A DNA stretch of 34,713 nucleotides from a virus. The translations under genes and the position numbers were made by a program. The notes under the pieces are model-generated. The model saw only the letters and a program-made list of their open reading frames with translations. It made no database searches and was not told the origin of the DNA. Shown here piece by piece: positions 3 to 14,718 of the stretch (positions within the stretch are counted from its first letter, which is position 1; the number at the start of each line of letters is the position of its first letter). The DNA lies in IMG/VR virus record IMGVR_UViG_3300020205_001385, positions 1 through 34,713 of that record; one strand, written 5' to 3'.

Positions 3-95
3 TTCAACAATATAACAGGACTTTTAGACGACTTGAACGGCACTTACCAGTACTACTACGGCAGTATTTTAACCGTTTCACGAACAGTATTTTAG
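3..95 (+). CDS. C-terminal fragment of upstream gene (possibly structural)
   Basis: Frame 3 is open from the window edge to a TAG at 93-95 and reads as a plausible protein C-terminus ending in SRTVF. The short stretch is rich in Asn, Gly, Tyr and Thr, as in tail-fibre or baseplate proteins, but it is too short to assign. The next gene starts 26 bp further on. The alternative frame 2 is also open from the edge into the following gene, but its residues (many Arg, Leu and Gln) look less protein-like. Function unknown; the tail-fibre idea is only an inference. Confidence 0.4.
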   Translation, partial: FNNITGLLDDLNGTYQYYYGSILTVSRTVF

Positions 96-116: not shown

Positions 117-121
117 CGTGT

Positions 122-748
122 ATGCAAAATCACGTAGAAAAACTAAACTTCTCTGTTGACTTACCTCAATTACGAAAATACTATGAAACCCTTCAACAGG
201 AGTATTCAGACTATATTTGGAGTGTAAAAGGGTTAGCAGAAAAGGACGAATACACAGCAACACGAGTTGCAGATAGCTTACCAAATTACGGCTGGGCCAT
301 CACAACAGAAGTGCTTGATGAAACTGTAAAGTCTAATCCGCCATGGCCCGAGGTTATTAGCGAATTTAGTTATGCAGAAAAGACACTAAAACCCGAACGT
401 AAAACTCCGTTAGTGTTTGGGATAGCAGAAAAAATACTAGAACAAATACCATACGCACATCATGTTATAATGTCAGTTTTTCCTCCAACAGGAGCTACTA
501 TCCCACATAGTGATCAAGATTTTCTTTTACGGGTGCATGTTCCTCTTTATACAAACAGAGAAGTACGTTGGTTAACAGATTCTGGATATCATAAAATAGA
601 TGAACCAGGACAAGCCTATCTTTGTGACACACGTAAGATGCATGCCGCATATAACGATAGTAAAGAAAATCGTGTACATTTTATTTTTGCAATTGAAGAC
701 CGACATCTAGAAGACATTAGAAAAATTACTGGAATTATAAAAATATGA
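122..748 (+). CDS. Aspartyl/asparaginyl beta-hydroxylase-like Fe(II) oxygenase
   Basis: A 208-aa protein with the double-stranded beta-helix signature of Fe(II)/2-oxoglutarate oxygenases of the AspH type. An HSD triad pair lies at H129 and D131, in the sequence TIPHSDQDF. The distal H174 (RKMHAAYN) is followed by an Arg at about 184 (ENRVHFIF) that would bind the 2-oxoglutarate carboxylate. It probably hydroxylates an amino-acid side chain of a peptide or small substrate; the substrate is unknown. It is the first gene of a tightly packed forward run and overlaps the next gene by ATGA. ATG 122 is used because the upstream in-frame extension does not look protein-like. Confidence 0.72.
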   Translation: MQNHVEKLNFSVDLPQLRKYYETLQQEYSDYIWSVKGLAEKDEYTATRVADSLPNYGWAITTEVLDETVKSNPPWPEVISEFSYAEKTLKPERKTPLVFGIAEKILEQIPYAHHVIMSVFPPTGATIPHSDQDFLLRVHVPLYTNREVRWLTDSGYHKIDEPGQAYLCDTRKMHAAYNDSKENRVHFIFAIEDRHLEDIRKITGIIKI

Positions 749-1422
749 ATAGTTGGGATTGGTTCAATAATAACTTCTTGCCGCCACAAGATTACAATCC
801 GTACCCAAAAAAGAATCGTCCAAATTACGGAGTGAATTCTCACAATTACCGTTGTCCTGAGTTTGACACAATTGACTGGAAAAACAGTTACGTATTGCTC
901 GGAGGATCGGATGTGTTTGGGGAAGGATTAAAAGATAACGAAATCATGAGTTATTTTTTACAGGAAATGCTAGGACAACCAGTTATCAACTTAGCAGTGC
1001 CTGCTGCTTCAAATCAACATATCGTATTAACAATGAGTATGTTGGCAAGATATCATACTCCCAAGGGATGGTTAATAGGATGGAGCGATGAGTGTAGGTG
1101 GTTACATTGGGATCCAACAACGTCTGATCCAATTAAGGTACAAGCACATCGTGGACCACATAAAGAGTTTTGTGGCGATCCTTACCCTCAGTTGCTAGAT
1201 GCGTTGTCTTGGTATTCAAGCCAGTCAAGGGTCACAGCTCAGGCAATTGGAAGAGATCGATTAATTGAAATTGGTGGGGAAACTATTCCAATTTTGAAAG
1301 AATGGAATGTAACTGCTGTTCCTTATATAGATAAAGGTTTCGATAGTCAACACATTGGTATTGATACGCATCGTAAGGCTGCTGAAATACTTTATCAAAA
1401 AATTAAGGAACGCGGCCTATGA
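745..1422 (+). CDS. SGNH/GDSL-type hydrolase-like protein
   Basis: A 225-aa protein with SGNH-fold motifs: block I LLGGSDVFGEG with putative nucleophile S55, a block II-like NLAVPAASN at 82-90, and a C-terminal DSQH (D200, H203) followed by a helix typical of block V. The family holds esterases, acetyl-hydrolases and O-acyltransferases that act on glycans, lipids or small molecules. No signal peptide is seen, so it is probably cytoplasmic. It overlaps both neighbours by 4 bp (ATGA), which suggests translational coupling. A second SGNH-like gene lies on the opposite strand at the end of the same block. The substrate is not deducible. Confidence 0.65.
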   Translation: MNSWDWFNNNFLPPQDYNPYPKKNRPNYGVNSHNYRCPEFDTIDWKNSYVLLGGSDVFGEGLKDNEIMSYFLQEMLGQPVINLAVPAASNQHIVLTMSMLARYHTPKGWLIGWSDECRWLHWDPTTSDPIKVQAHRGPHKEFCGDPYPQLLDALSWYSSQSRVTAQAIGRDRLIEIGGETIPILKEWNVTAVPYIDKGFDSQHIGIDTHRKAAEILYQKIKERGL

Positions 1423-2120
1423 ATATAGAAACCCAAATTCAAAATTTTTATAGTGAAATCAAATTCCCAGGATTGTATAGTGTTGACGATTTGAACTTTT
1501 ATCAAGAAAGTATAGACAATAAGTTTTTATCCATGTATAATACAGGTATACAAGGTAGTAAGACAATCTTAGATATTGGATGCGGGACCGGATTTATTAC
1601 AAATCTATTAGCGATTAAAAACCCTGACATAAAAATTGATGCTGTAGACTTTAGTGACAGCATCGATTTTGCTTGGCGATTTGGTATTAAAAACAAAATA
1701 AAAAACGTAATGTATTATAAAGAAGATTTTTTTAAATTTAATCCAACTCAAAAATATGACTGTATTATTTGTAACGGAGTATTACACCATATGCCACTAT
1801 ATCAAGATGCGATAGAAAAAATTAAAACAATGATTACTCCAACGGGAAAATTAATACTGGGTGTATATAATCGTTATGGAAAAACAATTAAAAAAGTTTT
1901 GCCTATTACATACCGTTCCGAATTATTAAGAGCAGACCAGGAAGATGTTCCTTACGAAGTTAGTTTTTCTAATAAAGAATTTTTAAGTTATTTTTTAGAT
2001 TTTAAAATAAATTCTGTTTATCCTAGTGTTAATAAACAGTTAGTTGATATAAGCAATTTATTAAATTATAAAAATGGCGGCTTAACTGTTTACAACTTAG
2101 AAAAAGAGGCCGTGCAATGA
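1419..2120 (+). CDS. Class I SAM-dependent methyltransferase
   Basis: A 233-aa Rossmann-fold methyltransferase. Motif I is LDIGCGTG at residues 51-58, an acidic motif II (DAVDFSD) follows at 74-80, and a post-motif NGVLHH lies at 119-124, as in methyltransferase type 11/12 small-molecule enzymes. The C-terminal third is less typical and may bind substrate. The gene is strikingly AT-rich (runs of Lys, Ile and Asn codons) compared with the later part of the window, which may mark recent acquisition. It overlaps neighbours by 4 bp on each side. Target unknown. Confidence 0.8.
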   Translation: MNIETQIQNFYSEIKFPGLYSVDDLNFYQESIDNKFLSMYNTGIQGSKTILDIGCGTGFITNLLAIKNPDIKIDAVDFSDSIDFAWRFGIKNKIKNVMYYKEDFFKFNPTQKYDCIICNGVLHHMPLYQDAIEKIKTMITPTGKLILGVYNRYGKTIKKVLPITYRSELLRADQEDVPYEVSFSNKEFLSYFLDFKINSVYPSVNKQLVDISNLLNYKNGGLTVYNLEKEAVQ

Positions 2121-2647
2121 TGCAACTAATCAGTAAAAATCCTAACTTTGTAAAACAAGAATGGATTGATTGGTGTTTGCAAAACACAGGGCAACGTATG
2201 CCTAGAGATTACTATAATGCTGGAGAGATAGACCACGCTGTACATGATGTGGGCGAACGTTTAAAATGGTTTTCTGAATGGGGTATCGATCCTATGTCTA
2301 CATTTCTAGAACGTTTCGATTCATCTAACTGTCCGTTTGAGCCAGACTTTAGTTTTTTAGGTGAGCCTAATATACGCTGGGGAATATTAAAATACAAGCC
2401 AGGTTGGTACATGCCGTTGCACAGCGATGACGTTAGATTTAAAAATGAAAAACGATTGTGGATACCAATGCAAGACTATGTAGACGGGCATATGGTTATA
2501 CACGGCGGCGAGTATTTTAAAGGTTGGGAAGCTGGAGATGTATATCACTTTACTGTTGAGGATGCCATACACGGTGCCGCAAACATCTCAGGAGTTACTA
2601 GACTAGTGTTTACCGTTGTAGTATTCCCAGAGCAAGAAAACGAATAA
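2117..2647 (+). CDS. Cupin-fold Fe(II)/2OG oxygenase (AspH-like), copy A
   Basis: A 176-aa protein with H102 and D104 in the motif MPLHSDD, H152 in IHGAANI and R162 as a likely 2-oxoglutarate ligand, so the metal-binding facial triad is intact. It shares an ordered set of motifs with the next gene product: PGxxMPxHxD, WIPxQD, GHM or GHI, GDV, and HGAANI before an Arg. The two are therefore paralogues or a heteromeric pair. ATG codons at 2117 and 2120 are both possible starts; the former overlaps the preceding stop. Probably a hydroxylase; substrate unknown. Confidence 0.68.
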   Translation: MMQLISKNPNFVKQEWIDWCLQNTGQRMPRDYYNAGEIDHAVHDVGERLKWFSEWGIDPMSTFLERFDSSNCPFEPDFSFLGEPNIRWGILKYKPGWYMPLHSDDVRFKNEKRLWIPMQDYVDGHMVIHGGEYFKGWEAGDVYHFTVEDAIHGAANISGVTRLVFTVVVFPEQENE

Positions 2648-2648
2648 C

Positions 2649-3152
2649 ATGGAATTCTTAGGCAACTATAAAGACTGGATTAATCCACTATGGTTAGATG
2701 AGTTACTTTCTAATCAAGGTACTGCACGGCCCAAGGAAGGAAAACGCCCTGATAGTCCTGAAGAGGAATTAGAGTACACTAAGGCAAGAGCTGCTGGCTA
2801 TAAGGATGATGAAACTTACTTTTATATGTTTACCAAAGACAATACAAGTTTTGATATTTCTCCTCCCTTTGTCAACGGACAGTTTCATTGGTGGATAACA
2901 AAAATGTTACCCGGAAACTTTATGCCTATGCACGTTGACCCGCATACTATATATGAAAAAAATAGTATGAGGTATTGGATACCTCTTCAAGATTGGCAAC
3001 CAGGTCATATTTTTATGTACGAAAATTTAGTTATCACTGATTATAAAAAGGGCGATGTATGGTGCTATGACAATCCAACTGCCCTACACGGAGCAGCAAA
3101 TATAGGACATACTCCCAGGATAATTTTACAAATAAGCACTCATGGAAAATAA
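2649..3152 (+). CDS. Cupin-fold Fe(II)/2OG oxygenase (AspH-like), copy B
   Basis: A 167-aa paralogue of the preceding gene, carrying MPMHVD (H95, D97), WIPLQD, GDVW, LHGAANI (H147) and R157. The triad is complete. Its N-terminal 70 residues differ from copy A, which suggests a different partner or substrate. It starts 1 bp after the upstream stop and overlaps the halogenase gene by 11 bp, so it is probably co-translated with it. Hydroxylation before or after halogenation is a possible role, but only by context. Confidence 0.68.
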   Translation: MEFLGNYKDWINPLWLDELLSNQGTARPKEGKRPDSPEEELEYTKARAAGYKDDETYFYMFTKDNTSFDISPPFVNGQFHWWITKMLPGNFMPMHVDPHTIYEKNSMRYWIPLQDWQPGHIFMYENLVITDYKKGDVWCYDNPTALHGAANIGHTPRIILQISTHGK

Positions 3153-4707
3153 TAGAAAAATAATAATTGTAGGCGGTGGAACTGCTGGATGGATGACTGC
3201 TGGATATCTTGCAAAGTATCGAGGTGCAAGTAACATTACAGTAATAGAAAGTCCTACTATACCTAAAATAGGAGTAGGCGAAAGCGTAACTCCCCATGTG
3301 AGTAATTTCTTTGAAGAGATTGGAGTGCCAACACATCACTGGATGAAGCATACTGGTGCTGTTTACAAGTATGCCAATAAATTTATTAACTGGCAAACTG
3401 GCAACGGAGAGACTGAATATTTTAGTTTTAATTATACTGTTCCTGCAAAAAACTTTTACAAAGATATAACTCCTGCAATTACACAACACGATTTTTCAAA
3501 TGATGTAGAGCAAGATAGATCTACAGATTTTTTATTAAACTTGGGATACAAGTTTGATCAATATTTTAATCCCCAGTTTCACTACATGGAAAAAAATGTA
3601 GCACCATTTGATGATTCAAATTTACTGAACGGTCCATTTAGTTTTAGTCAGCATATTAATGCCGAACTTGCGGGTAATTATATTAGAGATCATATTGCCA
3701 TACCGCAAGGTGTTAATCATATATTAGCAACAGTCGACCGTGTTGAACACACAGGCGATACTATCAGTAAGTTAATTTTAAACAATGGTGATGAGATTAC
3801 AGGCGATTTGTTCATTGACTGTAGCGGTTTTCATAAAGTTTTAGTAAAAAAATTAGAGTGGGCAGAAAAGATTTATAAAGATCATCCAATAGATAGTGCA
3901 TGGGTTTGTCAAACAGAATACGAAGACCCAGCAGTAGAAATGGTAAACTATACACAAAGCATTGCAGAACCTTACGGATGGAGATTTAAAATAGGTGTTT
4001 ATCATCGTATGGGTAACGGTTATTGTTTTAGTTCAAAGTATATAAATGAAGATGATGCGTTGGAATACTTTGAAAAACAAATAGGCAAACAAAAAACAAA
4101 ACCTAGATTAATTAAATGGACTCCTGGTAGATTAGAAAAATTTGGAGGAGGCAACGTAGCTTCTATAGGGTTAAGTTGTGGATTTGTAGAACCGCTAGAA
4201 GCAAATGCTTTGTATACTATTGTAACCAGTATTAGACGATTAAACAATGTATTAGATTTACCTAGTTTAGATTTTACAACATATAACGAAAAAATGTCTT
4301 ATACTATCGACGACATTGCAGACTTTATTCTAGTACACTATACACTAAGTTCTAGGACAGACACTAAGTTTTGGACAGACATGCAAGAACTAGGTAAGAA
4401 GTTAGATCACACAGCATTGGTGTGGAACAAATACAATCATGCTAATAACTCTATGTATGGTGCTATAACAGGTTACACAATGTTTCCTGATTACATGTGG
4501 GCACAATTAGGATCATCTTGGAAGATTACTCCATATCAAAAGTATTTAGATCCTATTACTAAAAAATTGGCCGAGTTGCATTTTAAGTATAGTGAAGAAA
4601 AACACGATATTATTTCAAGTACAAGAACAAATAGTTATCATTGGCTAAAAGAAAACATTTTTGAAAATCTAACGCCTGCACAATGGCAGGAGAAGTATAT
4701 TAAATGA
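3142..4707 (+). CDS. Flavin-dependent tryptophan halogenase family protein
   Basis: A 521-aa protein. The FAD-binding GGGTAGWM lies at 11-18 and GVGESVTP at 44-51. AVYKYANKF contains K76, matching the catalytic Lys that carries or activates hypohalous acid. GFVEPLEANAL at 347-357 matches the C-terminal active-site motif with its conserved Glu. The usual WxWxIP motif appears as GWRFKI (279-284), so the second Trp is Phe and the Pro is lost. The enzyme would need a flavin reductase, and none is visible here. The family is known in cyanophages, where VirX1 of phage Syn10 has been characterised. Regiochemistry and substrate (free indole, peptide-bound or other aromatic) cannot be told from sequence. 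Confidence 0.88.
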   Translation: MENNRKIIIVGGGTAGWMTAGYLAKYRGASNITVIESPTIPKIGVGESVTPHVSNFFEEIGVPTHHWMKHTGAVYKYANKFINWQTGNGETEYFSFNYTVPAKNFYKDITPAITQHDFSNDVEQDRSTDFLLNLGYKFDQYFNPQFHYMEKNVAPFDDSNLLNGPFSFSQHINAELAGNYIRDHIAIPQGVNHILATVDRVEHTGDTISKLILNNGDEITGDLFIDCSGFHKVLVKKLEWAEKIYKDHPIDSAWVCQTEYEDPAVEMVNYTQSIAEPYGWRFKIGVYHRMGNGYCFSSKYINEDDALEYFEKQIGKQKTKPRLIKWTPGRLEKFGGGNVASIGLSCGFVEPLEANALYTIVTSIRRLNNVLDLPSLDFTTYNEKMSYTIDDIADFILVHYTLSSRTDTKFWTDMQELGKKLDHTALVWNKYNHANNSMYGAITGYTMFPDYMWAQLGSSWKITPYQKYLDPITKKLAELHFKYSEEKHDIISSTRTNSYHWLKENIFENLTPAQWQEKYIK

Positions 4708-5120
4708 TAACAGATTGGATTGAAAGATTGGCAAAACCCCGAGAAGAATTAGGAGGGATGAGCGTCTGTCCCTTTGCTAAAAATTCAGATTATAGTATTG
4801 TAGAAACAGACGGCAGTGATATTAATCCGCCGCCGTGGGACTTTGAACTTATCATTTATAAATTACCAGATGAATATTCAATTGAAGAGCTGGCTGAACT
4901 AGCAACAGAATACAACGATATTTTTCCAGAGATGATATTTTTGCCAGACCATAAGGATAGAGAAACATTCATTAATGGTGTTGCTACCAATAATGGAAAA
5001 TATAATTTAATTTTATGTCAGTGGCGTGATAACTTAAATAAAGCAAGATCCAAGCTAGAACATACAAAATACTATAGTTTTTGGGATCAAACCTATTTGG
5101 AAGAAATAACTAAATTATGA
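4704..5120 (+). CDS. Small CPFAK-motif protein, halogenase neighbour
   Basis: A 138-aa protein of unknown function. The N-terminal WIERL followed by a SVCPFAK motif (C22) loosely recalls DUF1415 proteins, but the resemblance is limited and not verified. The rest is acidic and alpha/beta in character, without signal peptide or membrane segment. It overlaps the halogenase by 4 bp and the amidinotransferase by 4 bp, which suggests it serves one of them as a partner or carrier. It could also be an independent enzyme using the Cys. Confidence 0.55.
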   Translation: MITDWIERLAKPREELGGMSVCPFAKNSDYSIVETDGSDINPPPWDFELIIYKLPDEYSIEELAELATEYNDIFPEMIFLPDHKDRETFINGVATNNGKYNLILCQWRDNLNKARSKLEHTKYYSFWDQTYLEEITKL

Positions 5121-6202
5121 GTGTATGGACAAATTGGGATCCGTTAGAGGAAGTAATAGTCGGCGACTGTCCGAGTAAGTCTAGTGAAAACTGGAATTTA
5201 GAACCGCGGGCGAGAGAATTGTTTGATGAAATATTATCTGAAACAAAAGAAGATTTAGATAATTTAGCAAACAAACTAACATCGTTAGGTGTAAAAGTAT
5301 TCAGACCAGCAATAACTAATTTTGATCAAGTGATCAATCAAGGCGATTTTATAATAAGAAACCCCACGTTTCCTATTGTTCCGAGAGATCAATATCTGGT
5401 GTACGGTGATACTGTATATCAAACTTATACCAGTATGCCTGACAGATATCTCGATAGTGTAAACTACTATGATATCTTTTTGCATTTGTTCAATGAAGGA
5501 CATAACTGGATTAGCCAACCTCCTCCAGTATTACAAAACTTTAATGACAACAAAAAGTGGTTTATCGAAGGACAACAAATATACCACGAGCAATATAAAA
5601 ATAGTGTACTATGGCACACAGCTACAATGTTTAAATGCGGTGATGCACTTATTACAAACAATTTAGGACCAGGCAGTAAGTTGGGATTAGAATGGATGCG
5701 AAGAAATACTAACGCTAACATTATAAACAACGACAATACTATAGTAGACAACTGGGGACACATTGATCATGGATTCTACATGAGCGATGACGATACTGTG
5801 TTTTGTTTGAATAAACGATGGGTGCCAGAAGTGCTACGTAATAAGAATGTAATTGAACTAGATTCGTTGACTCCAAAGCCTGCGTTTGACTATCAACTGT
5901 TTATGGAAGAGTGGAAAACTAGTAAAGGCAAATTAACAGTAGAGTGGCTAGAAGGTTGGATTTCCGAATGGAAGGGTTACTCACAAGAAATTGCTTTTGA
6001 AAGTAATAACCTCATTGTTGATTCAAAAAATATAATATTTTCTATAGAACAGCCAAAGGTGTTTGACTTAATGTCTGGTATGGGAATTACTCCGCACGTA
6101 TGTAAAATGCGGCACGGCTTGTTTTGGGAAGCAGGAATTCATTGTTTAACACTAGACATAAAAAGAAAAGGATTTAATCGTACAGTAATTTCGGCATCAT
6201 AA
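5117..6202 (+). CDS. Glycine amidinotransferase-like enzyme
   Basis: A 361-aa member of the amidinotransferase family (GATM, StrB and AmtA type), which moves the amidino group of arginine to an amine. It starts with the typical WDPLEEVIVG and has the catalytic elements in order: MFKCGDALIT (D176), GHIDHGFYM (H215) and a C-terminal GIHCLTLDIKR (C343). The segment KLGLEWMRRN before HID matches the family. Length is close to the usual 350-420 aa. The acceptor amine is unknown. With an aminotransferase later in the same run, a route from a keto group to an amine to a guanidine is conceivable. Confidence 0.82.
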   Translation: MSVWTNWDPLEEVIVGDCPSKSSENWNLEPRARELFDEILSETKEDLDNLANKLTSLGVKVFRPAITNFDQVINQGDFIIRNPTFPIVPRDQYLVYGDTVYQTYTSMPDRYLDSVNYYDIFLHLFNEGHNWISQPPPVLQNFNDNKKWFIEGQQIYHEQYKNSVLWHTATMFKCGDALITNNLGPGSKLGLEWMRRNTNANIINNDNTIVDNWGHIDHGFYMSDDDTVFCLNKRWVPEVLRNKNVIELDSLTPKPAFDYQLFMEEWKTSKGKLTVEWLEGWISEWKGYSQEIAFESNNLIVDSKNIIFSIEQPKVFDLMSGMGITPHVCKMRHGLFWEAGIHCLTLDIKRKGFNRTVISAS

Positions 6203-6205
6203 ATA
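6198..6205 (+). promoter_or_regulatory. CATAAATA box before radical SAM gene
   Basis: CATAAATA, one base from the T4 late consensus TATAAATA, overlaps the stop of the upstream gene and ends 4 bp before the ATG at 6210. If active it would start transcription about at the start codon. Weak evidence. Confidence 0.25.
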
Positions 6206-6209
6206 TTAG

Positions 6210-8126
6210 ATGAAAAACGTATATCTAATACAAGCTGAAATCTCATCCGGCCCGTCAAATGAACACTACTTACCATTTAGTGTTGGATGTATCTGGGCAT
6301 ACGCTAATCAATTTAAAGATATACAATCAAATTTTAAATTATGTGATGTAATTTGGCAAAGAGACCGCCAGGCAAATGTATTAGATAAAATTGTAGATCC
6401 AGATATTGTGGGGTTTAGTTGCTATGTATGGAATCATAATTGGAATTTAACTCTTGCTAAAAAAATAAAAAACAAATATCCAAATTGTTTAATTGTGTTC
6501 GGCGGGCCAAGTGTTAATGAAGAATGGTCTAACTACAAATTCATTGACGTAGCAATGTTTGGTGAAGGTGAAGTTGCTTGGGCAGAACTTTTAAGACTAT
6601 ATCAAGATAACAAACCCATACCTAAATATTGGAACAATCCTAGACAAAACGATATTGCTAATTTTCCAAGTCCGTACACTACTGGATTCTTTGATAAAAT
6701 TATCGAAGAGAATCCGGATGTAAGTTGGTTTATGATGTTAGAGACTAACAGAGGATGTCCGTATCATTGTACATTCTGCGGTTGGGGTGCAGACTATTTA
6801 AACAAACTTAAAAACTTTAATCTACATAGAGTTGAAGAAGAAATTGCATGGGCAATAACACATAATATACATTGGATGTTTATCATCGACGCAAACTCAG
6901 GAATCATGAAAGAACGTGATGTAGAAATTGCGTGGATGATCCGAAGAGCTATAGAAACTCCGGGCAGTAAAATTAGACGTGTTACATTTAATCACGCTAA
7001 AAATTTAAATGAACATTGCTTTGAAATGGAGAAAGTAATACAAGATTGGACTTATGGTTTAGAAATAGCCATACAAAGTATGCACCAACCTACACTCACT
7101 GCATCTAAACGAATCAATATGGGTATGAATAATTTAGAACGTGCTTATGCATTATGTCGTAAACACGGCATTCGCTACTATACGGAACTAGTGCTTGGGT
7201 TGCCTGAAGAAACTAAAGAAACATATATTAACGGATTAATGAAGTTGCTAGAATTAGGACAGCATGATAGTGTAAAAACATATCCGTGTACAGTAATACC
7301 TAATAGCGAAATGGATACAACTGAATACAGAGATCGCTACGGAATTAAATTAATATATCCAAGAGACATGTACAGAAGTCCAGAAGAAAGAATATGGGAC
7401 GATGAAGATCTAAGCCATGAAACAATAGCTATGGTATCTTCTACTGATTCAGCATCAAGTCAAGATTTAGCAGATTGTTTAAGTTACAGTTGGATGATGA
7501 GCCAGTTTCACTATGCAGGTATTACCCAACTTGTAGCACGATATTTGTATCATATTAAAAAAATAAACTATCGAGATTACTATGATAGTTTTTATCAAGC
7601 ATTAAAAAACGACAGCATAGGAAGCAACTTATTAAACAACGTTGAAGAAATATTACAAAATTATATGATTCACGGCGAAGTTCCAAAAAATGATAAATGG
7701 GGTAATGTTGTAGCCCTTACACTACCTGAAAGCTACGGCAGTGATGTAGTAATTCAAAATAAGAATCATTTTATACAACTAGGGTTAACTGTTGCTAATA
7801 AATTTGCTGAGATAGATTCTAGTATAATTGAATTGCAGTATGCATTTACAAAAACAGTTAATCAAGAATATCCGTATGTTGTTCATTCGACTATAGATAT
7901 TGATAGATGGGAAGTTGCTGATTGTTCTTACGAGATAGTCGATAGAAAAGCTGTCAGTCATATGCATGATCAAATGTATCACAAGTATTTGTTAAAGACT
8001 GATATTAAAAATATAACAAATCCATATGTTGAAAAATATATAGATGATACTTATAAAGGTCAAAAAATTGCCACTATCCCTATTAACTTAATTCCTTCAA
8101 CTGTACTAGAAGGTCGAGTAATGTAA
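6210..8126 (+). CDS. B12-binding-domain radical SAM protein
   Basis: A 638-aa protein. The N-terminal 140 residues resemble a cobalamin-binding Rossmann domain: IVGFSCYVWN at 67-76, FGGP at 97-100 and MFGEGEVAWAELL at 116-128. The radical SAM domain follows, with NRGCPYHCTFCGW at 180-192 (C183, C187, C190 for the 4Fe-4S cluster) and LVLGLPEETKE near 330. The 200-residue C-terminus is unassigned and may be substrate-specific. Enzymes of this class methylate unreactive carbons, or cyclise or epimerise substrates. It begins 7 bp after the amidinotransferase stop and overlaps the next gene by 1 bp. Confidence 0.87.
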   Translation: MKNVYLIQAEISSGPSNEHYLPFSVGCIWAYANQFKDIQSNFKLCDVIWQRDRQANVLDKIVDPDIVGFSCYVWNHNWNLTLAKKIKNKYPNCLIVFGGPSVNEEWSNYKFIDVAMFGEGEVAWAELLRLYQDNKPIPKYWNNPRQNDIANFPSPYTTGFFDKIIEENPDVSWFMMLETNRGCPYHCTFCGWGADYLNKLKNFNLHRVEEEIAWAITHNIHWMFIIDANSGIMKERDVEIAWMIRRAIETPGSKIRRVTFNHAKNLNEHCFEMEKVIQDWTYGLEIAIQSMHQPTLTASKRINMGMNNLERAYALCRKHGIRYYTELVLGLPEETKETYINGLMKLLELGQHDSVKTYPCTVIPNSEMDTTEYRDRYGIKLIYPRDMYRSPEERIWDDEDLSHETIAMVSSTDSASSQDLADCLSYSWMMSQFHYAGITQLVARYLYHIKKINYRDYYDSFYQALKNDSIGSNLLNNVEEILQNYMIHGEVPKNDKWGNVVALTLPESYGSDVVIQNKNHFIQLGLTVANKFAEIDSSIIELQYAFTKTVNQEYPYVVHSTIDIDRWEVADCSYEIVDRKAVSHMHDQMYHKYLLKTDIKNITNPYVEKYIDDTYKGQKIATIPINLIPSTVLEGRVM

Positions 8127-9286
8127 TGCTATTAGGATTTAATTCTTCCAACATAGATAGACTACTTTCTAGTATCGCTGGAACTCAGTTAGATTCTACA
8201 GTAAGCCTTTGCCATCAGTGCCATAGGCACATTCCTGCGTGGCGTTATCATAAAGACAATCAAGTGTTTATTGCTAAAGCATGTCCTATACACGGTGTTA
8301 GCCATCACATGATTGAAGCTGATTATGAGTTTTACGCTAACCTGTATTATACTCAGGATAATCCAGAGTTTAATTTTAATGGCGGAGTGCTTATTGAAGG
8401 TAGTGACCGTTGTAATCTAGAATGTCCGCATTGTTACCATTTACCAGAGAATGATACCCGCGACCCTTCTATAGAAGAATTGCTCGATCAAATACGAGCC
8501 ATGCCTGTGGGTGAGGATGGAGTACATAGAATTATCCTCGCTGGTGCTGAAAGTACCTTACGTAAAGACTTTCCAGAATTAGTTACAGCAATACGAAATA
8601 TCCATCCTTCAATGAATGTTAGTGTAATGACTAACGGGTTACGTTTTAATGATAGCGAGTTCAGCCATCAGTGTGTAATCGCAGGACTTACTGGAGTTAA
8701 CATAGGGCTTAACCACCCAAGTTACATTGACCACGAAACTGTAAGACGTAAACAAATAAGTGCTATTGAAAATATGCATCGCGAAAATGTTAGGATAGGT
8801 TACATAAGTTACACTATGGTTGATTTCAGCGAGTTAGATTATATCTTAACTGAGATTACAAGTAACCCCTGGACTCCAAAGAACTTTCGTATTAGGTGCG
8901 GAGCAGAGATTGGTCGCAATGCTAGTTCTGAACAACCGTTTGTTAGCAACCTATATAAACGTGTTGAGCAGTGGTGTAAAGATCATGGTAAGAGTTTCGA
9001 ACGTATTATCCAAGCTGACAATAATATCTATCATGTGATGGTAAACATAGATGATAAAGTTGTTAGGTTAATAGCATGGTGTGATGAAACTAATATTGAT
9101 ATGGAAGAATTACGTAGTGGCCCTTGGTGTAACTTTGTGCCAGACGGCATCACTAATTTCCTACATCAGATTATTCGTAGAGATGTATTTAAGAATCAGA
9201 ACATTCCACTACCAGATACTCCACCAGCGCGATACTTGTTTTGCCGAAATCCTGATAAGTCAAAATTGGATTTGTTAAATTTATGA
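8126..9286 (+). CDS. Radical SAM protein, MJ0619/Tes-like architecture
   Basis: A 386-aa protein. An N-terminal zinc-finger-like segment (C29, C32, C53, H56, with SLCHQC and KACPIHG) precedes the radical SAM CxxxCxxC at C96, C100 and C103 (DRCNLECPHCY). This layout is typical of the MJ0619-like group, which includes 7,8-dihydro-6-hydroxymethylpterin methyltransferase and archaeal tetraether lipid synthases. Family placement is from motif order only. A pterin substrate is worth considering because the window also carries a QueD/PTPS-like gene, but the two are 24 kb apart. It overlaps the SDR gene by 4 bp. Confidence 0.82.
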   Translation: MLLGFNSSNIDRLLSSIAGTQLDSTVSLCHQCHRHIPAWRYHKDNQVFIAKACPIHGVSHHMIEADYEFYANLYYTQDNPEFNFNGGVLIEGSDRCNLECPHCYHLPENDTRDPSIEELLDQIRAMPVGEDGVHRIILAGAESTLRKDFPELVTAIRNIHPSMNVSVMTNGLRFNDSEFSHQCVIAGLTGVNIGLNHPSYIDHETVRRKQISAIENMHRENVRIGYISYTMVDFSELDYILTEITSNPWTPKNFRIRCGAEIGRNASSEQPFVSNLYKRVEQWCKDHGKSFERIIQADNNIYHVMVNIDDKVVRLIAWCDETNIDMEELRSGPWCNFVPDGITNFLHQIIRRDVFKNQNIPLPDTPPARYLFCRNPDKSKLDLLNL

Positions 9287-9783
9287 AAATAGCAATAACA
9301 GGCGGAACCTCATCGGTGGGACAGAGTATAGCAAAGGCATATACTAAACGAGGTCACACTGTGATTGATATCTCACGCTCACTAGGTTATAATTTTAACG
9401 ATACTACCTCTATAATAAATGCCATACTACCCTGTGATGTATTTGTAAATTGTTTATACTTAGCAGACCTACAAGTTATGTTATTAGAACAAGTATGGAA
9501 CAATTGGGAAGGAACTAACAAGGAAATTATCAATGTTAGCACTTGTGTTACCCTGCCAATTTTTGCGGCTAAAGATGCCGAGTATAAAGAACAAAAAATA
9601 CTACTTGAAAACAAGCATTGGGAATTGATATCTAAAAATGTTATTAATCCTAAGATGTACCTAATAAAGTTCGGAGACGGCAACGATCATACTTCTTGGG
9701 ATAACTGCTGCGATTATGTAGTCAACTCCATAGAATTAGCAAAGCCAGATGTATCATTATTTGAAATGTTGGTATTCAAATGA
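9283..9783 (+). CDS. Short-chain dehydrogenase/reductase, minimal form
   Basis: A 166-aa SDR-like protein. It has the nucleotide-binding TGGTSSVG at 6-13, a Ser in the NVST motif (S86) and a YxxxK pair at Y101 and K105. The catalytic residues are thus present although the protein is about 80 residues shorter than classical SDRs and lacks most of the substrate-binding C-terminus. It probably oxidises or reduces an alcohol or ketone with NAD(P)H. It overlaps the neighbouring genes by 4 bp on both sides. Confidence 0.7.
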   Translation: MKIAITGGTSSVGQSIAKAYTKRGHTVIDISRSLGYNFNDTTSIINAILPCDVFVNCLYLADLQVMLLEQVWNNWEGTNKEIINVSTCVTLPIFAAKDAEYKEQKILLENKHWELISKNVINPKMYLIKFGDGNDHTSWDNCCDYVVNSIELAKPDVSLFEMLVFK

Positions 9784-10403
9784 ACTTAACTATTAATTTA
9801 CTACGACCTGGACTGTACGGACTATCAGTATTACTAGACCACGACTATGCTACTGTTATAAAAGCATTAGACTCTGAAGACTGGCAAGCTCACGCTGACA
9901 GAAAAGCAGATGCAGGACTATCAGGTGATCCGTATACAGAACGGGCTGGGTTGTTAAATCCAAAAAGTCAAGTTTTAAAAGATATCATGGAGTTTGTCAA
10001 TTCCGATGCTGTAAAAGAACAACTTGTAAATTTTGTATACGAAACACAAGGCGACTATATAAGTAGTCTATGGGAAGGATGGAGTAAGGAACAGATGCTC
10101 CAGTATACATTTTGGGGTTGTATGTTTAACAGAGACCAACCCGGATTTCACATACCGTTACATGTAGATACACGATTGCAGATTGCCACAGCTATGATAT
10201 ATTTTGTCGAAGAAGATGATCCAAAACAATCAACTGTATATTATACTAGCAACAAGTTTGATGATCCGTTAAGAATTAACAACACATTTGGTAATGGTGT
10301 ATTACATATAAACGATCATACAGCATGGCACGAAGGGTACAACAAGTCCAATATTACACGTTATAGTTTAATTTGCGGACTGCTATTAAAAGTAAAGGAA
10401 TAA
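9780..10403 (+). CDS. Prolyl-4-hydroxylase-like 2OG-Fe(II) oxygenase
   Basis: A 207-aa protein with the HxD pair in IPLHVD (H128, D130), a distal H184 in TAWHEGYN and R194 in ITRYSL, a complete Fe(II)/2-oxoglutarate oxygenase active site. MIYFVEEDD and VLHIND fit the strand order of the fold. Similar genes are frequent in marine T4-like phages. Substrate unknown; a peptide or small molecule of this pathway is likely. It ends 2 bp before the next start. Confidence 0.72.
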   Translation: MNLTINLLRPGLYGLSVLLDHDYATVIKALDSEDWQAHADRKADAGLSGDPYTERAGLLNPKSQVLKDIMEFVNSDAVKEQLVNFVYETQGDYISSLWEGWSKEQMLQYTFWGCMFNRDQPGFHIPLHVDTRLQIATAMIYFVEEDDPKQSTVYYTSNKFDDPLRINNTFGNGVLHINDHTAWHEGYNKSNITRYSLICGLLLKVKE

Positions 10404-10405
10404 TT

Positions 10406-11491
10406 ATGAAAATTAGCAAAATACCGGGACTAGGAAGATTTGGAACATTTGTAGACAATGTAGACTTTGATCACATCACTGACGAAGAATGGTTAGAAAT
10501 TGGCAAACTACATTTAAACAGTTTAGTTACAATTATACGAAACACTAATCTTACTAAAAAAAGATATATTGAACAGATTGGTAAATGGGGAACTCCTAGA
10601 GATACTGCATCTTACTATTTTACAAAGAAACATCATATTACTCCAATTGAAGCACTTAACTCAAATGCACAAGTAGGAGAGGAAGATGGCAAGTGGTTGC
10701 AGTTCCTGCGTCCTTTATTAGAAACAGACGACCAAGGCCGTCCGCTTGCACTGTTAAAAGTCACAGGTAAGAAAAACGAATACGGGGAGCCTGTTGGTCT
10801 GTTTGCTGAAGGCGAATTATTGTGGCATAGCAATGAGTCTGGTAATTTATTATTCACACCAGGTGTATCGTTGTTAGGCGAAACTGGAATGGTCGGTAGT
10901 TCAACAGGTTTTATGACTACAGTTGATTGGTACGAAAAACAAAGCGAAAGTTTTCGTAGCGAGTTAGATGAGATGGTTGTTCTGCATCGCTTTGCTCCAG
11001 GAAAAATAAATCCAGGATTACGTAAAGAACAAGACATGATCATTTATAAAAATATGTGTCCTGTCGACGACTCAAGAGTTCCAATGGTAATGCGTAGTCC
11101 AGGCGGCTACAAAGGATTACATTTCAGTGTGCATACAATGTATTCCATTGAGGGTATGAGCAAAAAAGATTCGGATAGTATGTTTGAACGTATTGCAAAA
11201 GAGTTATTTGTACCTGAGTATACATACGACCATTGGTATCAAACTGATAACGACTTATGTTTGTTTGATAACAGCATTACTCTGCACAGACGATTAGGTG
11301 GCGTTGAAAACAGACTAGCTCAACGCATACAATACGATTATAATCATATTCAGGAAAATAACTACAATCCGTACATACAAAAAGAGTTCCAAGATGTTTA
11401 TAAAAAACAAATGCGTGACTATTTTAAAGTAATGGGACGAACTAACGAATTGTCGTTTAAAGATAAAATATTAAGCACATTAGGATTTTAA
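10406..11491 (+). CDS. TauD/TfdA-like dioxygenase with Asp-to-Asn active-site change
   Basis: A 361-aa protein; start ATG 10406 is preferred because AAAGGAA lies 5 bp upstream, although the frame is open back to 10373. The TauD-like arrangement is visible: an N-terminal SLVTIIRN strand, then LLWHSNESGN (H141), a long insert, and the C-terminal FDNSITLHRR (H294) with an Arg near 308. At the position where the family has HxD the sequence reads HSN (N143), so the carboxylate metal ligand seems replaced. The protein may be altered in chemistry, use E144 instead, or be inactive. It adjoins the aminotransferase gene directly. Confidence 0.72.
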   Translation: MKISKIPGLGRFGTFVDNVDFDHITDEEWLEIGKLHLNSLVTIIRNTNLTKKRYIEQIGKWGTPRDTASYYFTKKHHITPIEALNSNAQVGEEDGKWLQFLRPLLETDDQGRPLALLKVTGKKNEYGEPVGLFAEGELLWHSNESGNLLFTPGVSLLGETGMVGSSTGFMTTVDWYEKQSESFRSELDEMVVLHRFAPGKINPGLRKEQDMIIYKNMCPVDDSRVPMVMRSPGGYKGLHFSVHTMYSIEGMSKKDSDSMFERIAKELFVPEYTYDHWYQTDNDLCLFDNSITLHRRLGGVENRLAQRIQYDYNHIQENNYNPYIQKEFQDVYKKQMRDYFKVMGRTNELSFKDKILSTLGF

Positions 11492-12661
11492 ATGGAATTA
11501 AATTTTAAAACTACAGAACAAGTAACAACTGAAGTGTTTAAAACAGAAGGTTATTGGATACACACCAACCACGGCAAATTATTAGATACTATATGCGGTA
11601 ACATGTCTTTTATCTACGGATATGATAATGAGTTTATTTTAAACCGCATGTACGAGCAACAGAAACAACTTGCATATCTTAACTTTAAACATAATGAAAT
11701 TTGTAAAGCTAATGATACATTAGTTGAATTGTTATGCAAAGAAGGAAACTTTAAAGGTATCGGCTATGCCATTAGTGGAACTGATGGAGTAGAATGTGCA
11801 GTTGCAATGAATTCACATTACTGGCGACAAGTTGATGCAACTCGAAAAACTATTATATCGTTTGCACCAGGTTATCACGGAGCAACATATCTGTGTCGTG
11901 CATTTCGTGGCGAGGAAGAACTGTCCAGTGTTAAAGTACTAAGAGCGCCAGAGTGGTTTAAAATTGAAGATAGAACTGCCCAGGAAGAAATGGCGTTTCA
12001 TCGTGTTAAGCATTTGCTAGAAACAGATAAAACAGTTGGCGCAATTATTATGGAGTCGATCCCGTGGGCAGAAGGCATCAGACCGTGGAGTACAAAGTGG
12101 TGGCAATACATCCGACATATTTGTACAGCTTATGGAGTTAATCTAATAGTCGATGATGTAATGGGTGGAATGGGTAAACTAGGTTATCGATTTAGCCACG
12201 ACCGTTATGGTGTACAACCTGATATCGTTGCATTGGGTAAGGCCATTACTGGAGGATTTAGTCCGCTAAGTTGTGCCTGTGCAATTGATAAGATAGCAGA
12301 TGTTATTAAAGACAAGTGGGATTACGGACACACGTGGCAACCTAATATGGCAGGAGTTGGAGCTGCGTTGGCAGTTTGGGAAATGTTTGATAGCGAAAAA
12401 ATACTCTTCATTGAAGATCAATTAACAATGCTAGGTAAAAAATTAAGTGCCATGGGCTTAATCACAGATTACGTAGTCATTGGTTTGATATTTTCTTATA
12501 AATTTAACACACCTATATCTTCAGATTCGTATGTTAAGCACGGACTAACAGGCGGCCCAGATGTTAAACATAGCATCAGCGGATGTGCGCCGGCAATTGC
12601 TGACTTTGAATACTTTAAAGAATTTGAAACTAGAGTAATCAACGTATTAGCTGATAGATAA
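11492..12661 (+). CDS. Class III PLP-dependent aminotransferase (GSAM-like)
   Basis: A 389-aa fold-type I enzyme. SGTDGVECAV lies at 95-104, PGYHG at 126-130, the PLP-binding acid is D221 in LIVDDVMGGMG, and the Schiff-base lysine is K250 in ALGKAITGGFSPLS. It is most like glutamate-1-semialdehyde aminomutases and related aminotransferases of biosynthetic clusters. It probably aminates a keto or aldehyde intermediate. It is the last gene of the forward run, starts right after the upstream stop, and its 3' end overlaps the convergent reverse-strand gene by 23 bp. Confidence 0.85.
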   Translation: MELNFKTTEQVTTEVFKTEGYWIHTNHGKLLDTICGNMSFIYGYDNEFILNRMYEQQKQLAYLNFKHNEICKANDTLVELLCKEGNFKGIGYAISGTDGVECAVAMNSHYWRQVDATRKTIISFAPGYHGATYLCRAFRGEEELSSVKVLRAPEWFKIEDRTAQEEMAFHRVKHLLETDKTVGAIIMESIPWAEGIRPWSTKWWQYIRHICTAYGVNLIVDDVMGGMGKLGYRFSHDRYGVQPDIVALGKAITGGFSPLSCACAIDKIADVIKDKWDYGHTWQPNMAGVGAALAVWEMFDSEKILFIEDQLTMLGKKLSAMGLITDYVVIGLIFSYKFNTPISSDSYVKHGLTGGPDVKHSISGCAPAIADFEYFKEFETRVINVLADR

Positions 12662-13166
12662 TATCTGCTACAAGTTGATTCCCAGTTTCGTTCATATGAT
12701 TAATATCCCCAGGGTTAGATACCCAGATTTGATTTAAATTAATTACGTCTGTTCTAATAGATTCAAAAAACGTTATATGAAAGCTGTTTGGAACTTGTAA
12801 TTTATCAACTAACAAATCAAACACATCGTTAAAATATTCTTCGTCCCAAATACTTTCTAAAATTTTAATATATTCTTTTTCTTTCTTTTCGTAAACATCA
12901 TTGATAATGATGTCACACTTAGGATGTGACTCTAGCAATCTACTAGAAATGTCTTTGTCATTTTTTAAAAATATTCTAGTTGGAGATGTATGAACAAATA
13001 TAATTTTATCTGTTTTTGAAATTTCAAATTTCTTTTTCAAATAAGTTTTGTAAATTCTGTATTCGCTACTGCCATTGGATGCAAAGTTATTAGTGGCTCC
13101 TAGTTTGCTAACCCAAGAGCTACTGTCATCGCTTGCAGCAAAGCTATCGCCGAAAATCCAAATCAT
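12639..13166 (-). CDS. SGNH-hydrolase-like protein, reverse-strand trio
   Basis: A 175-aa protein read from an ATG whose first base is 13166; the preceding gene's stop shares that base (TAATG). IFGDSFAA at 4-11 gives nucleophile S8, NFASNGSSE at 27-35 may be block II, and DINH at 154-157 matches the block V Asp and His. It is a small SGNH-fold protein, perhaps an esterase or acyltransferase. Its C-terminus overlaps the aminotransferase gene tail-to-tail by 23 bp, so the two strands share coding sequence there. Confidence 0.6.
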   Translation of the reverse strand: MIWIFGDSFAASDDSSSWVSKLGATNNFASNGSSEYRIYKTYLKKKFEISKTDKIIFVHTSPTRIFLKNDKDISSRLLESHPKCDIIINDVYEKKEKEYIKILESIWDEEYFNDVFDLLVDKLQVPNSFHITFFESIRTDVINLNQIWVSNPGDINHMNETGNQLVADIIYQLIR

Positions 13167-13756
13167 TAAACTTTTCCTATTATCATAAAACGTTTGTATA
13201 GTTGTAGTTGTATCTCTCCAGACCATATTACGTTTAAATGACTTTGATTTTCAAATTCTGATAGATTGTTCGCAATACGTACATGTTCATCAATCTTGTA
13301 ATTGTTACTTTGTAGCACTAGTAAACTATCTTTTGGCATTCTAGATAACCAGGTTTCGTATTGCTCCTGTGTTATATGTTCACAACTTGTATTAATAATA
13401 ACATCACCGTGGACTGGCACAGAACACATATCAGATGTTATTGCTCTAAATTTACCATCCTGCTCTTCTATCTTGTTCATCATTGTAGCAATAGGTTCAC
13501 AAGTAGGATCGAGATCCACACTACAAATATAATGTGTAGGAATATTACTTTGAAATAGCATACTGGCTAACACACCAACCCATCCACCGTGTATATCAAT
13601 ACGTACACTACGATGTATATGTTTACCTAGGCAATCTATCAGCCATTCTTTACTACGCATCTGACCTTGCCAGAAAGCATCCATTGTACGCATAGGGTCC
13701 GGACTTTGACGTATTGCGTTCATCCAGTAGTGTAAGTGTTCTGTATCTATTTGCAT
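13166..13756 (-). CDS. Methyltransferase-like Rossmann-fold protein
   Basis: A 196-aa protein with a Gly-rich loop DIHGGWVGVLA at 54-64, an acidic turn SVDLDP at 79-84 and later NTSCEHI, an arrangement typical of class I SAM-binding proteins although motif I is atypical (HGGW instead of GxGxG). The N-terminal half predicts helical SAM-enzyme packing. It overlaps the upstream radical SAM gene by 10 bp and the downstream SGNH gene by 1 bp, so the three are one translational unit. Substrate unknown. Confidence 0.6.
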   Translation of the reverse strand: MQIDTEHLHYWMNAIRQSPDPMRTMDAFWQGQMRSKEWLIDCLGKHIHRSVRIDIHGGWVGVLASMLFQSNIPTHYICSVDLDPTCEPIATMMNKIEEQDGKFRAITSDMCSVPVHGDVIINTSCEHITQEQYETWLSRMPKDSLLVLQSNNYKIDEHVRIANNLSEFENQSHLNVIWSGEIQLQLYKRFMIIGKV

Positions 13757-14718
13757 TTTGGTATTTTGCTATCTGCTGAACTAACACAACTAGGTGTAAT
13801 ACAGCGAGCGGCTTCCTTAAATAATTCAAAACTGTCTAGAGTTCCTAATGGAGCTTCGTGACAACTATATGAACGTTTAACTTCATTGCCTCTTATTATA
13901 ACACTTTGATATCCTGCATTGCAAGTCCAATCTTTAAACTTGTTAAATCCAAAGGCATTAAATCGTTCTGCTTGATCAAAAAGATATTCAGTGTTATTAT
14001 TGTCATATAAAGCAATTTGATATATGTCTTCACCGTTGGCACGTTGCGGGAATCCTGTTTGCATTTTATGTATCATATCTTCAGTATAACCGTCAACAAC
14101 CGCACTCGCCTGCGGATTGCTTTGCGGCTTGAGTGTTACGTTGATCCCACGTTTGTGGAAACGTTCCATACGTTCGTACAGTTCATAAAACTTTTCTGGA
14201 ACCATAACTTGATTGATAGTAACATGTACTAGCTCATATTGTAACTGTAAGCACTTGTCTCCAAACTCTTGTTCCTTGGCAAACTCATCGTGGAAGCTGG
14301 CTGTTATGCTACGGCGCTGTAATAATGCAGTATTGGCACACCAAGTGTTCCACCATTTGCTTCCAGGACTCAAATTGGTAGTCATGTGGATACTTTGATA
14401 TGTACTTTCCTTTTCGTCCAAATATTTAACAAGGTCATTTAACTGTTTGTAAGCTGTAGGCTCACCTCCGCTGAACGACCAATGGAACTGGTTAAACCCG
14501 TTGGCTCGTGCTTGACGCTTAATCTCGTCTACAGTAGATTTATATACTTCAAGCGGTTGGTGATCAACTCGGTCACTGCGGGCATAGGGCCAACAGTAAC
14601 TACAATTATAATTACAAAATCTTCCCAAAATCCAACTGGTGGAAAATAATGGATTGGCTAGCATAGTGCGTTGCCCGAAACGTACAATATTTTGGAATGG
14701 TATTTGGTTAAAGTTCAT
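13747..14718 (-). CDS. Radical SAM protein with SPASM-like C-terminus
   Basis: A 323-aa protein. CNYNCSYCW carries C35, C39 and C42 for the 4Fe-4S cluster; SFSGGEPTAY (81-90) is the SAM-binding GGE motif. The C-terminal 70 residues hold Cys in the order CNAGYQS, SYSC, CITPSC and the final KCK, consistent with a SPASM or twitch domain binding an auxiliary cluster. SPASM enzymes often modify peptides, so a protein or peptide substrate is possible, but no short precursor is evident nearby. First gene of the reverse-strand trio; a GTTAAATA-like box lies 6 bp before its ATG. Confidence 0.85.
   Translation of the reverse strand: MNFNQIPFQNIVRFGQRTMLANPLFSTSWILGRFCNYNCSYCWPYARSDRVDHQPLEVYKSTVDEIKRQARANGFNQFHWSFSGGEPTAYKQLNDLVKYLDEKESTYQSIHMTTNLSPGSKWWNTWCANTALLQRRSITASFHDEFAKEQEFGDKCLQLQYELVHVTINQVMVPEKFYELYERMERFHKRGINVTLKPQSNPQASAVVDGYTEDMIHKMQTGFPQRANGEDIYQIALYDNNNTEYLFDQAERFNAFGFNKFKDWTCNAGYQSVIIRGNEVKRSYSCHEAPLGTLDSFELFKEAARCITPSCVSSADSKIPKCK

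Follow-up and report, generated by a model that had tools for sequence, protein, structure and literature searches.

The Campylobacter phages CP220 and CPt10 carry an interchangeable module of radical S-adenosylmethionine (SAM) and glycine-amidinotransferase genes (Timms et al. 2010, PMC2853527), and this module is the nearest described system to the locus reported here, a densely packed block of tailoring-enzyme genes in a 34,713-base IMG/VR virus record, IMGVR_UViG_3300020205_001385, which is classed as a linear fragment and is called the window throughout. Like the island to which the block belongs, the CP220/CPt10 module is a compact operon that joins several radical SAM genes to a homologous amidinotransferase (23-27% identity), is exchangeable between related phages and lies upstream of a tail-fibre gene; unlike the island, CP220 keeps the triad aspartate of its amidinotransferase, and the part of its genome that was read has no gene annotated as halogenase, aminotransferase or SpeD; in that part a covariance model of the tRNA-like RNA described below likewise gave no match. 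A literature search returned no paper joining phage, radical SAM, amidinotransferase and halogenase. Phage SpeD-derived enzymes, for their part, have been shown to be ornithine or arginine decarboxylases (ODC or ADC; PMC9992855), and a second source gives Gln, Thr, Phe and Tyr as the diagnostic residues of SpeD-derived ODC (PMC10407285).

Extent of the island

Six-frame reading places 17 intact genes in the block, 14 forward (122 to 12661) and three reverse (12639 to 14718), with a coding fraction of 1.01 and with neighbours that mostly overlap by 1-11 bases (spacings between successive genes: -4,-4,-4,1,-11,-4,-4,7,-1,-4,-4,2,0,-23 (convergent),-61,-10). An earlier note on this DNA had described 16 genes, 13 forward and a reverse trio, starting at 122; the block is indeed real, dense and intact and the three reverse genes stand, but the count is 17 and the forward genes are 14, a gene for a 138-aa protein at 4704-5120 having been omitted. 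Nor does the island start at 122: the left boundary of the block is artificial, given that nucleotides 3-92 already encode the C-terminus of a further B12-binding radical SAM protein, a partial gene whose counterpart in the related locus L002 sits in the same place, and the island therefore runs past the contig edge.

The window block, from a large aquatic phage, is thus the 3' (right-hand) part of something longer, an exchangeable island of tailoring genes in T4-like jumbo phages. The jumbo relative G008 (265,680 bases) is T4-like by its terminase and sheath matches, and here the island occupies about 185,377-218,960 (33.6 kb). Of its roughly 37 genes, eight encode radical SAM proteins and some dozen are of 2-oxoglutarate (2OG) type; a QueC-like and a nitroreductase-like gene are also present, together with one that resembles sulfotransferases by motif. 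GC content is lower in the island than in the remainder, both in the window (35.9% for 1-14718 versus 39.3% for 14937-34713) and in G008 (37.3% versus 42.9%). A second enzyme island in G008 (29-42 kb; L064, L065) is orthologous to the VirX1 region of cyanophage Syn10 and directly follows Gly-rich fibre-tip-like proteins, and three further tandem halogenases lie at 42-47 kb (region 29,000-47,600). QueC-like and QueD genes occur in island-bearing phages. The cultured cyanophage S-SCSM2R (PQ898602.1, 213-241 kb; L059, L288) presents another arrangement, two amidinotransferases being set among glycosyltransferases, KdsA/KdsB, a DegT-type aminotransferase, a radical SAM protein, SpeD, 2OG oxygenases and a halogenase.

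Conservation and core composition

Two homology scans returned 34 and 24 loci with a common gene order, and alignment-based scans covered the best 80 of 168 loci for the amidinotransferase and the best 80 of 154 loci for the Zn-ribbon radical SAM protein; dereplication left 88 groups, 65 of them with the amidinotransferase, these groups being contig fragments that are not phylogenetically independent. The gene order of the block recurs in many independent contigs. The class III aminotransferase is found in 41/65 groups with the amidinotransferase versus 2/23 without it (p 5e-6), the 138-aa protein in 39/65 versus 3/23 (p 9e-5) and SpeD in 25/65 versus 0/23 (p 1e-4), while the Zn-ribbon radical SAM protein accompanies the amidinotransferase in 31 groups, a figure biased by sampling, and the halogenase and the B12-radical SAM protein in 22 each. 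The halogenase is therefore a variable passenger, and the recurrent core consists of amidinotransferase, class III aminotransferase, 138-aa protein and SpeD homologue. Minimal sets occur in surroundings that are unrelated in other respects, namely SpeD, 138-aa protein and amidinotransferase, or aminotransferase, 138-aa protein and amidinotransferase, and with the 138-aa protein as sole seed a scan found the amidinotransferase nearby in 30/57 groups. Most of the other, more distant copies of the 138-aa protein adjoin gp25/gp6, baseplate genes of T4 type, and the arrangement is the same in cultured cyanophages. The family corresponds to cyanophage T4-GC 824 (hypothetical), which stands just before gp25/gp6 in marine T4-like phages without an amidinotransferase (S-PM2 26205-26669, L289; L254-L286).

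Close pairs for which dS was usable give a ratio of nonsynonymous to synonymous substitution (dN/dS) of 0.036-0.162, indicating strong purifying selection, and together with the invariant catalytic residues this rules out pseudogenes or random cargo. The view of the earlier note that the block is a phage-borne, linked and apparently functional set of tailoring enzymes is thereby upheld: in relatives the genes are neither scattered and unlinked nor pseudogenised, catalytic residues being invariant in 73/73, 43/43 and 28/28 sequences of the amidinotransferase, aminotransferase and halogenase, respectively, and the co-occurrence that it proposed to look for in viral contigs was found for the amidinotransferase, the B12-radical SAM protein and the halogenase, the last two in 22/65 groups each. 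Among 50,697 cultured-phage records there was no match to the Zn-ribbon radical SAM protein and there were two weak matches only to the B12-radical SAM protein, and only distant homologues of the amidinotransferase subfamily came up among cultured phages. Two-peptide pattern scans of one genome each from 84,980 bacterial and archaeal species, which would miss distant forms, returned no relative of the amidinotransferase or of the 138-aa protein, and a bacterial origin is unsupported by them to that extent. The island is accordingly a conserved mosaic and apparently phage-specific, and our confidence in the existence, conservation and intactness of the block, as well as in its linkage to the RNA described next, is high.

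A tRNA-like RNA and a fibre gene at the edges

Two features outside the earlier note mark the edges of the island, a tRNA-like RNA at 14795-14912 of the window and, in relatives, a fibre gene. The window RNA has a 7-bp acceptor stem, a D arm with the invariant GG, a TTCGAA T arm and an encoded ACCA. ARAGORN and Rfam (Rfam 15) gave no match for it in the window, and an ordinary tRNA, a tmRNA or an intron-bearing tRNA was rejected after ARAGORN runs with intron options and in tmRNA mode returned none; for ten short copies in relatives the ARAGORN anticodons are mutually inconsistent or undetermined. A pattern for the 3' end (T arm) matched at least 119 viral contigs, and with earlier loci added there are 72 distinct sequences with a complementary 5' acceptor strand. 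The RNA lies beside island genes in 69 of these 72 and is directly divergent from the gene of the radical SAM protein rSAM3 in 57 (gap 21-76 nt); rSAM3 is a neighbour in 59/72 loci and the methyltransferase-like protein MT2, within six genes, in 54/72. Reciprocally, a scan seeded with MT2 alone recovered the RNA in 47/80 loci, and a distant jumbo phage, G003, likewise has the RNA at the edge of its island.

The covariance model found 73 copies, in the loci of the 72 sequences plus L046, with lengths of 95-118 nt. The acceptor stem covaries (67 double-change cells versus 27 in shuffles; 99.4% of cells paired), acceptor complementarity having been one selection criterion and the invariance of the T arm having been partly imposed by the search pattern. 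As regards the features expected of a decoding tRNA, acceptor stem, D arm, T arm and CCA are present and the 5-bp anticodon stem with a 7-nt loop is absent: hairpins of variable length, commonly with UUCG or GNRA-type loops, stand in place of the anticodon arm, and a 7-nt loop appears in 1/73 folds. Judging from these predicted folds, the RNA is a putatively non-decoding and previously uncatalogued family with no Rfam match; a literature search on RNA terms found nothing relevant. It could act as an aminoacyl carrier, as a modified RNA or as a relic marking a recombination site, and the last of these roles is disfavoured because conserved tRNA elements are retained.

At the opposite edge relatives carry a gene for a receptor-binding fibre, which has a weak PHROG likeness to tail fibre and baseplate proteins and bears an Mtd_N domain at its N terminus; four of these proteins were tested for the domain and gave E values from 7e-12 to 4e-8. 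The gene falls within the region covered in 19 groups. It adjoins island genes in 19/19 and forms the island edge in 16/19, and in G008, where it occupies 183308-185380, its end shares 4 nt with the first island gene. One relative has a fatty-acid-desaturase-like gene (L107:8525-9316; PF00487, E 2e-20) and a weakly sulfotransferase-like gene (L107:7923-8522), both between the Mtd_N fibre and the remainder of the island.

Enzyme identities and the putative core pathway

Most family calls of the earlier note are borne out by profile or structure; those of the short-chain dehydrogenase/reductase (SDR), both SGNH genes, MT2 and the 2OG genes 2117-2647 and 9780-10403 remain weak profile or motif assignments, OxF (9780-10403) and MT2 (13166-13756) having no PDB profile match and the SGNH-like gene 12639-13226 no Pfam match. 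The positions of all features are collected in Table 1.

Table 1. Genes and RNA of the tailoring block in the window, with the supporting evidence (E, expectation value; pLDDT, predicted local distance difference test; A1, A5, A6 and A7, alignments of this work).
Feature	Position	Strand	Evidence
3' end of further B12-binding radical SAM gene	3..95	+	tblastn: residues 588-617 of 617-aa L002 gene vs nt 3-92, 70% identity; stop position inferred
Fe(II)/2OG oxygenase, Asp/Arg-hydroxylase type	122..748	+	PF05118 E 1e-9; dN/dS 0.09 vs L002
SGNH-hydrolase-like (DUF6473-like) protein	745..1422	+	PF20078 E 0.006, under cut-off; motif reading
Class I SAM methyltransferase	1419..2120	+	PF13847 E 2e-17
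2OG oxygenase OxE (putative), family present many times in relatives	2117..2647	+	HSD...H motif, without profile match; clusters with 2649-3152
2OG oxygenase, Asp/Arg-hydroxylase type	2649..3152	+	PF05118 E 0.002, under cut-off; HVD...H
Flavin-dependent halogenase family	3142..4707	+	PF04820 E 5e-90; PDB matches RebH/LooH/VirX1
138-aa protein ('small'), phage-only family, core partner of amidinotransferase	4704..5120	+	alignment A1; AF2 pLDDT 89.7
Pentein-fold amidinotransferase (HsvA/StrB-like), His167 for triad Asp	5117..6202	+	PDB HsvA E 1e-21; fold match StrB1/HsvA/SxtG/AGAT
B12-dependent radical SAM, TokK/KedN5/CysS-like C-methyltransferase	6210..8126	+	TokK E 1.6e-69, CysS 2e-30
Zn-ribbon radical SAM, HMPTM/Tes type	8126..9286	+	PF23545 E 1e-14; PF04055; Tes structure 7tol E 1e-14
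Short SDR-like Rossmann protein (putative)	9283..9783	+	profile A5 vs PDB SDRs E 1.7e-7, residues 2-35 only
2OG-oxygenase-like protein OxF	9780..10403	+	H128xD130...H184 invariant in alignment A7
TauD-type oxygenase, HxN for HxD/E	10406..11491	+	PF02668 E 3e-12; WHSNE motif in every copy found
Class III pyridoxal-phosphate (PLP) aminotransferase (omega-amine type)	11492..12661	+	PF00202 E 1e-44; PDB matches include polyamine/omega-transaminases; Lys250 in 43/43
SGNH-hydrolase-like protein	12639..13226	-	GDS...N-H-x-N motif reading
Methyltransferase-like protein MT2	13166..13756	-	alignment A6; <=6 genes from tRNA-like RNA in 54/72 loci
Radical SAM protein rSAM3, divergent to tRNA-like RNA	13747..14718	-	PF04055 E 2e-12
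tRNA-like RNA with long hairpin for anticodon arm	14795..14912	+	acceptor stem, D arm with GG, T arm, encoded CCA; long variable arm

The halogenated or guanidinylated product proposed earlier is putative, and both halogenase and amidinotransferase deviate at known active-site motifs. In the halogenase the FAD-motif G11, Lys76 and Glu353 are invariant in 28/28 relatives, whereas the WxWxIP motif is absent, the window reading WRFKIG (WxFxIG) and its relatives retaining the second Trp and the Pro in 7/28 each. The amidinotransferase model (pLDDT 79) matches StrB1 and HsvA (Foldseek E about 2e-21) as well as SxtG and AGAT; D91, H167, H215, D217, H342 and C343 are invariant in 73/73 nonredundant sequences, so that pentein fold, nucleophilic Cys (C343) and general-base His (H215) are all present, and the enzyme would be predicted to transfer an amidino group from arginine to an amine.

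The B12-radical SAM protein combines an N-terminal B12-binding domain (PF02310, E 3e-10) with a PF04055 core and has CxxxCxxC in 35/37 relatives; against the NCBIfam KedN5 model it scores 162 bits, under the cut-off of 700. The Zn-ribbon radical SAM protein, with a radical SAM domain at E 5e-14 beside its PF23545 match (E 1e-14), has CxxxCxxC in 62/62 relatives and is under the NCBIfam equivalog cut-offs for Tes (68 versus 450 bits) and TrsS (79 versus 490). Both the PLP Lys and the Asp of the class III aminotransferase are kept in 43/43, and WHSNESG in the TauD-type protein gives HxN at the Fe-binding HxD/E site in all five copies found. The 138-aa protein has no PDB match by sequence or fold, its matches being viral predicted structures only; a link to DUF1415 was suspected and is not supported. 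The 17 genes give no Pfam match to nonribosomal peptide synthetases (NRPS), polyketide synthases (PKS) or ribosomally synthesized and post-translationally modified peptides (RiPP), and the block has no space for a precursor gene, in agreement with the earlier note; a polyketide, nonribosomal-peptide or RiPP cluster, with neither module nor precursor gene in these 17 genes, is rejected for the block.

Island SpeD homologues (PF02675) keep the processing Ser, His and Cys in all but one. With positions mapped by our own interpretation of the published ODC criterion, the pattern Gln...Thr-Ser-Asn...His-Phe...Tyr is present in 19/25, and one more departs at Tyr only; four sequences are without the proline typical of genuine S-adenosylmethionine decarboxylase (AdoMetDC), as in ADC. 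Our first guess, that these homologues make decarboxylated SAM, was dropped on reading this residue pattern. The homologue at L005:2250-2603, on a contig that also holds L092, has the processing Ser, His and Cys all replaced and is degenerate or has another role. In the core pathway that we envisage, the SpeD-type enzyme would convert ornithine to putrescine, the amidino group of arginine would pass to the amine with regeneration of ornithine, and transamination of the omega-amine would follow. The chain is put together by analogy, and our confidence in this core chemistry is moderate.

Downstream of the block the window continues with phage genes for a ClpP-like protease, a DNA ligase, MazG, QueD and a fibre-like virion protein, and at 28892-30262, outside the block, with an N-terminal-twitch radical SAM gene (NF033640, E 1e-104). 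Seven NF033640-type N-terminal-twitch radical SAM genes stand in tandem in a relative (L032:10975-20969), after the aminotransferase, the 138-aa protein and the amidinotransferase.

Discussion

The explanation that we tentatively favour, while giving it somewhat less than an even chance, is that the exchangeable island builds an unusual group and attaches it to one of the macromolecules of the phage, the likeliest target being the fibre or some other protein of the virion surface. The core (SpeD-type ornithine or arginine decarboxylase, amidinotransferase, omega-aminotransferase and 138-aa protein) would supply a small cationic guanidino-amine or aldehyde building block; the variable enzymes would hydroxylate, methylate, desaturate or halogenate the group while it is carried on, or moved to, the macromolecule; and the resulting exchangeable surface chemistry might change adsorption or hide the virion, the tRNA-like RNA participating as a charged carrier or modified RNA and not as a decoding tRNA. 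Decoration of the virion surface leads because a fibre gene stands at the island edge and because G008 has two enzyme islands, each after fibre-type genes. Confidence in the target and biological role is nevertheless low, and several observations weigh against this explanation. The window fragment holds neither the fibre edge nor a SpeD gene; the fibre edge, viewed only within about 10 kb of genes, may be a mere recombination boundary, fibre loci being variable in most phages; no ligase or transferase for attaching the group to a protein was recognised; and the triad Asp of the amidinotransferase, which we take to be D179 in StrB1 and D254 in AGAT after checking the position on the HsvA PDB alignment, is replaced by His167 in 73/73. 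The amidinotransferases of S-SCSM2R lie among glycosyltransferases, that of CP220 likewise lies by nucleotide-sugar-transferase-like genes, and elsewhere the amidinotransferase occurs with QueD, FolE, epimerase or DegT genes, so that a sugar target is favoured there. Product, transcript and target of the island are, moreover, putative. A more specific version, in which the non-decoding RNA is charged with an amino acid, island enzymes remodel the aminoacyl group by hydroxylation, C-methylation, halogenation and guanidinylation, and the group passes non-ribosomally to the receptor-binding fibre, strikes us as highly doubtful.

The same enzymes could instead make a free small molecule, guanidinylated, hydroxylated, sometimes halogenated and derived from a polyamine or an amino acid, that alters host physiology or harms competitors. 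The natural-product tailoring families, the TokK/KedN5-like B12-radical SAM protein, the SpeD, amidinotransferase and aminotransferase core and the HsvA-like amidinotransferase, whose bacterial relatives make phevamine A (PMC13123061), are what such a pathway would contain; we nonetheless consider it unlikely, as no ligase, NRPS, PKS, precursor peptide, export or self-protection gene was recognised among the annotated genes and the tailoring genes vary too much between islands for one conserved bioactive. That the island acts on a glycan, either encoded by the phage or present on the host surface, for example by placing amidino groups on amino sugars, seems to us distinctly unlikely: StrB acts on an amino-cyclitol phosphate, and the gene neighbourhoods of S-SCSM2R (glycosyltransferases, KdsA/KdsB, DegT-type aminotransferase, 2OG oxygenases), of CP220 (two nucleotide-sugar-transferase-like genes) and of one clade (epimerase, DegT, a glycosyltransferase) point this way, but neither the window block nor the G008 island has a nucleotide-sugar enzyme or recognised glycosyltransferase, and the core aminotransferase is of class III and not of the sugar (DegT) type.

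Two further explanations would give the RNA edge a more prominent part. The core might only adjust arginine and polyamine pools for replication, the remainder being unrelated cargo at a recombination hot spot marked by tRNA-derived sequence. tRNA genes are classical recombination targets, and the lower GC of the island fits such a history, as does the documented activity of phage SpeD-derived ODC and ADC (PMC9992855) the pool adjustment; even so, many families keep their co-occurrence and order over deep divergence, rSAM3 stays 21-76 nt from the RNA, and the RNA has preserved the tertiary elements of a tRNA as well as an acceptor stem that covaries, needless for a mere target site, all of which renders this account rather improbable. 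Finally, rSAM3, MT2 and related enzymes might modify the tRNA-like RNA or host tRNAs, making the island partly an RNA-modification system. The near-constant proximity of MT2 (54/72) and rSAM3 (59/72) to the RNA and the QueC-like and QueD genes of island-bearing phages are consistent with this, yet rSAM3 and MT2 fall under the cut-off for known RNA-modification families and the halogenase, amidinotransferase and aminotransferase would be left unexplained, and we rate it as very improbable.

The genes in enzyme-rich islands of large phages are usually listed singly under 'auxiliary metabolic genes'. In the present case tailoring genes travel by the dozen, as a single bounded unit, in many uncultured phages, with a receptor-binding fibre at one edge and a conserved family of tRNA-like RNAs at the other. 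This organization offers a concrete hypothesis for the role that halogenases, 2OG oxygenases and radical SAM enzymes play in T4-like phages of marine and fresh waters, an assayable minimal four-gene core and a new RNA family, and it brings enzymes unusual in their chemistry to notice, i.e. an amidinotransferase with His for Asp and a TauD protein with HxN. S-SCSM2R, in turn, provides a culturable system for testing a glycan role.

Comparison with known systems

The VirX1 region of the cyanophages Syn10 and Syn9 resembles the island in placing a halogenase and many 2OG-type genes after tail-fibre genes, flavin halogenases being followed there by a run of small genes, and its halogenases share about 30-33% homology with the window halogenase, VirX1 itself being a solved phage halogenase (6qgm). 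The island is not this locus, for G008 has an orthologous VirX1 locus at 29-42 kb and the island at 185-219 kb. The RNA shares with class II tRNAs the acceptor, the GG of the D loop, the T arm, the long variable arm and CCA, and differs from them in having no conserved 7-nt anticodon loop, a length of 95-118 nt and no Rfam 15 match; its nearest annotated sequences are tRNA-Tyr of Aeromonas phages, to which the 3' part is 85-87% identical over 40-46 nt. The fold and the His, Asp and Cys residues of the phage amidinotransferase are common to the Erwinia polyamine amidinotransferase HsvA, StrB1, SxtG and AGAT, and where StrB1 has D179 in its triad 73/73 phage enzymes have His. The island SpeD, compared with the SpeD-derived pyruvoyl ODC and ADC of phages and bacteria (PMC9992855, PMC10407285), keeps the processing Ser, His and Cys and, on our mapping, mostly a putative ODC pattern; what sets it apart is that it is tied to both the amidinotransferase and the class III aminotransferase, and our literature searches did not find these enzymes combined elsewhere.

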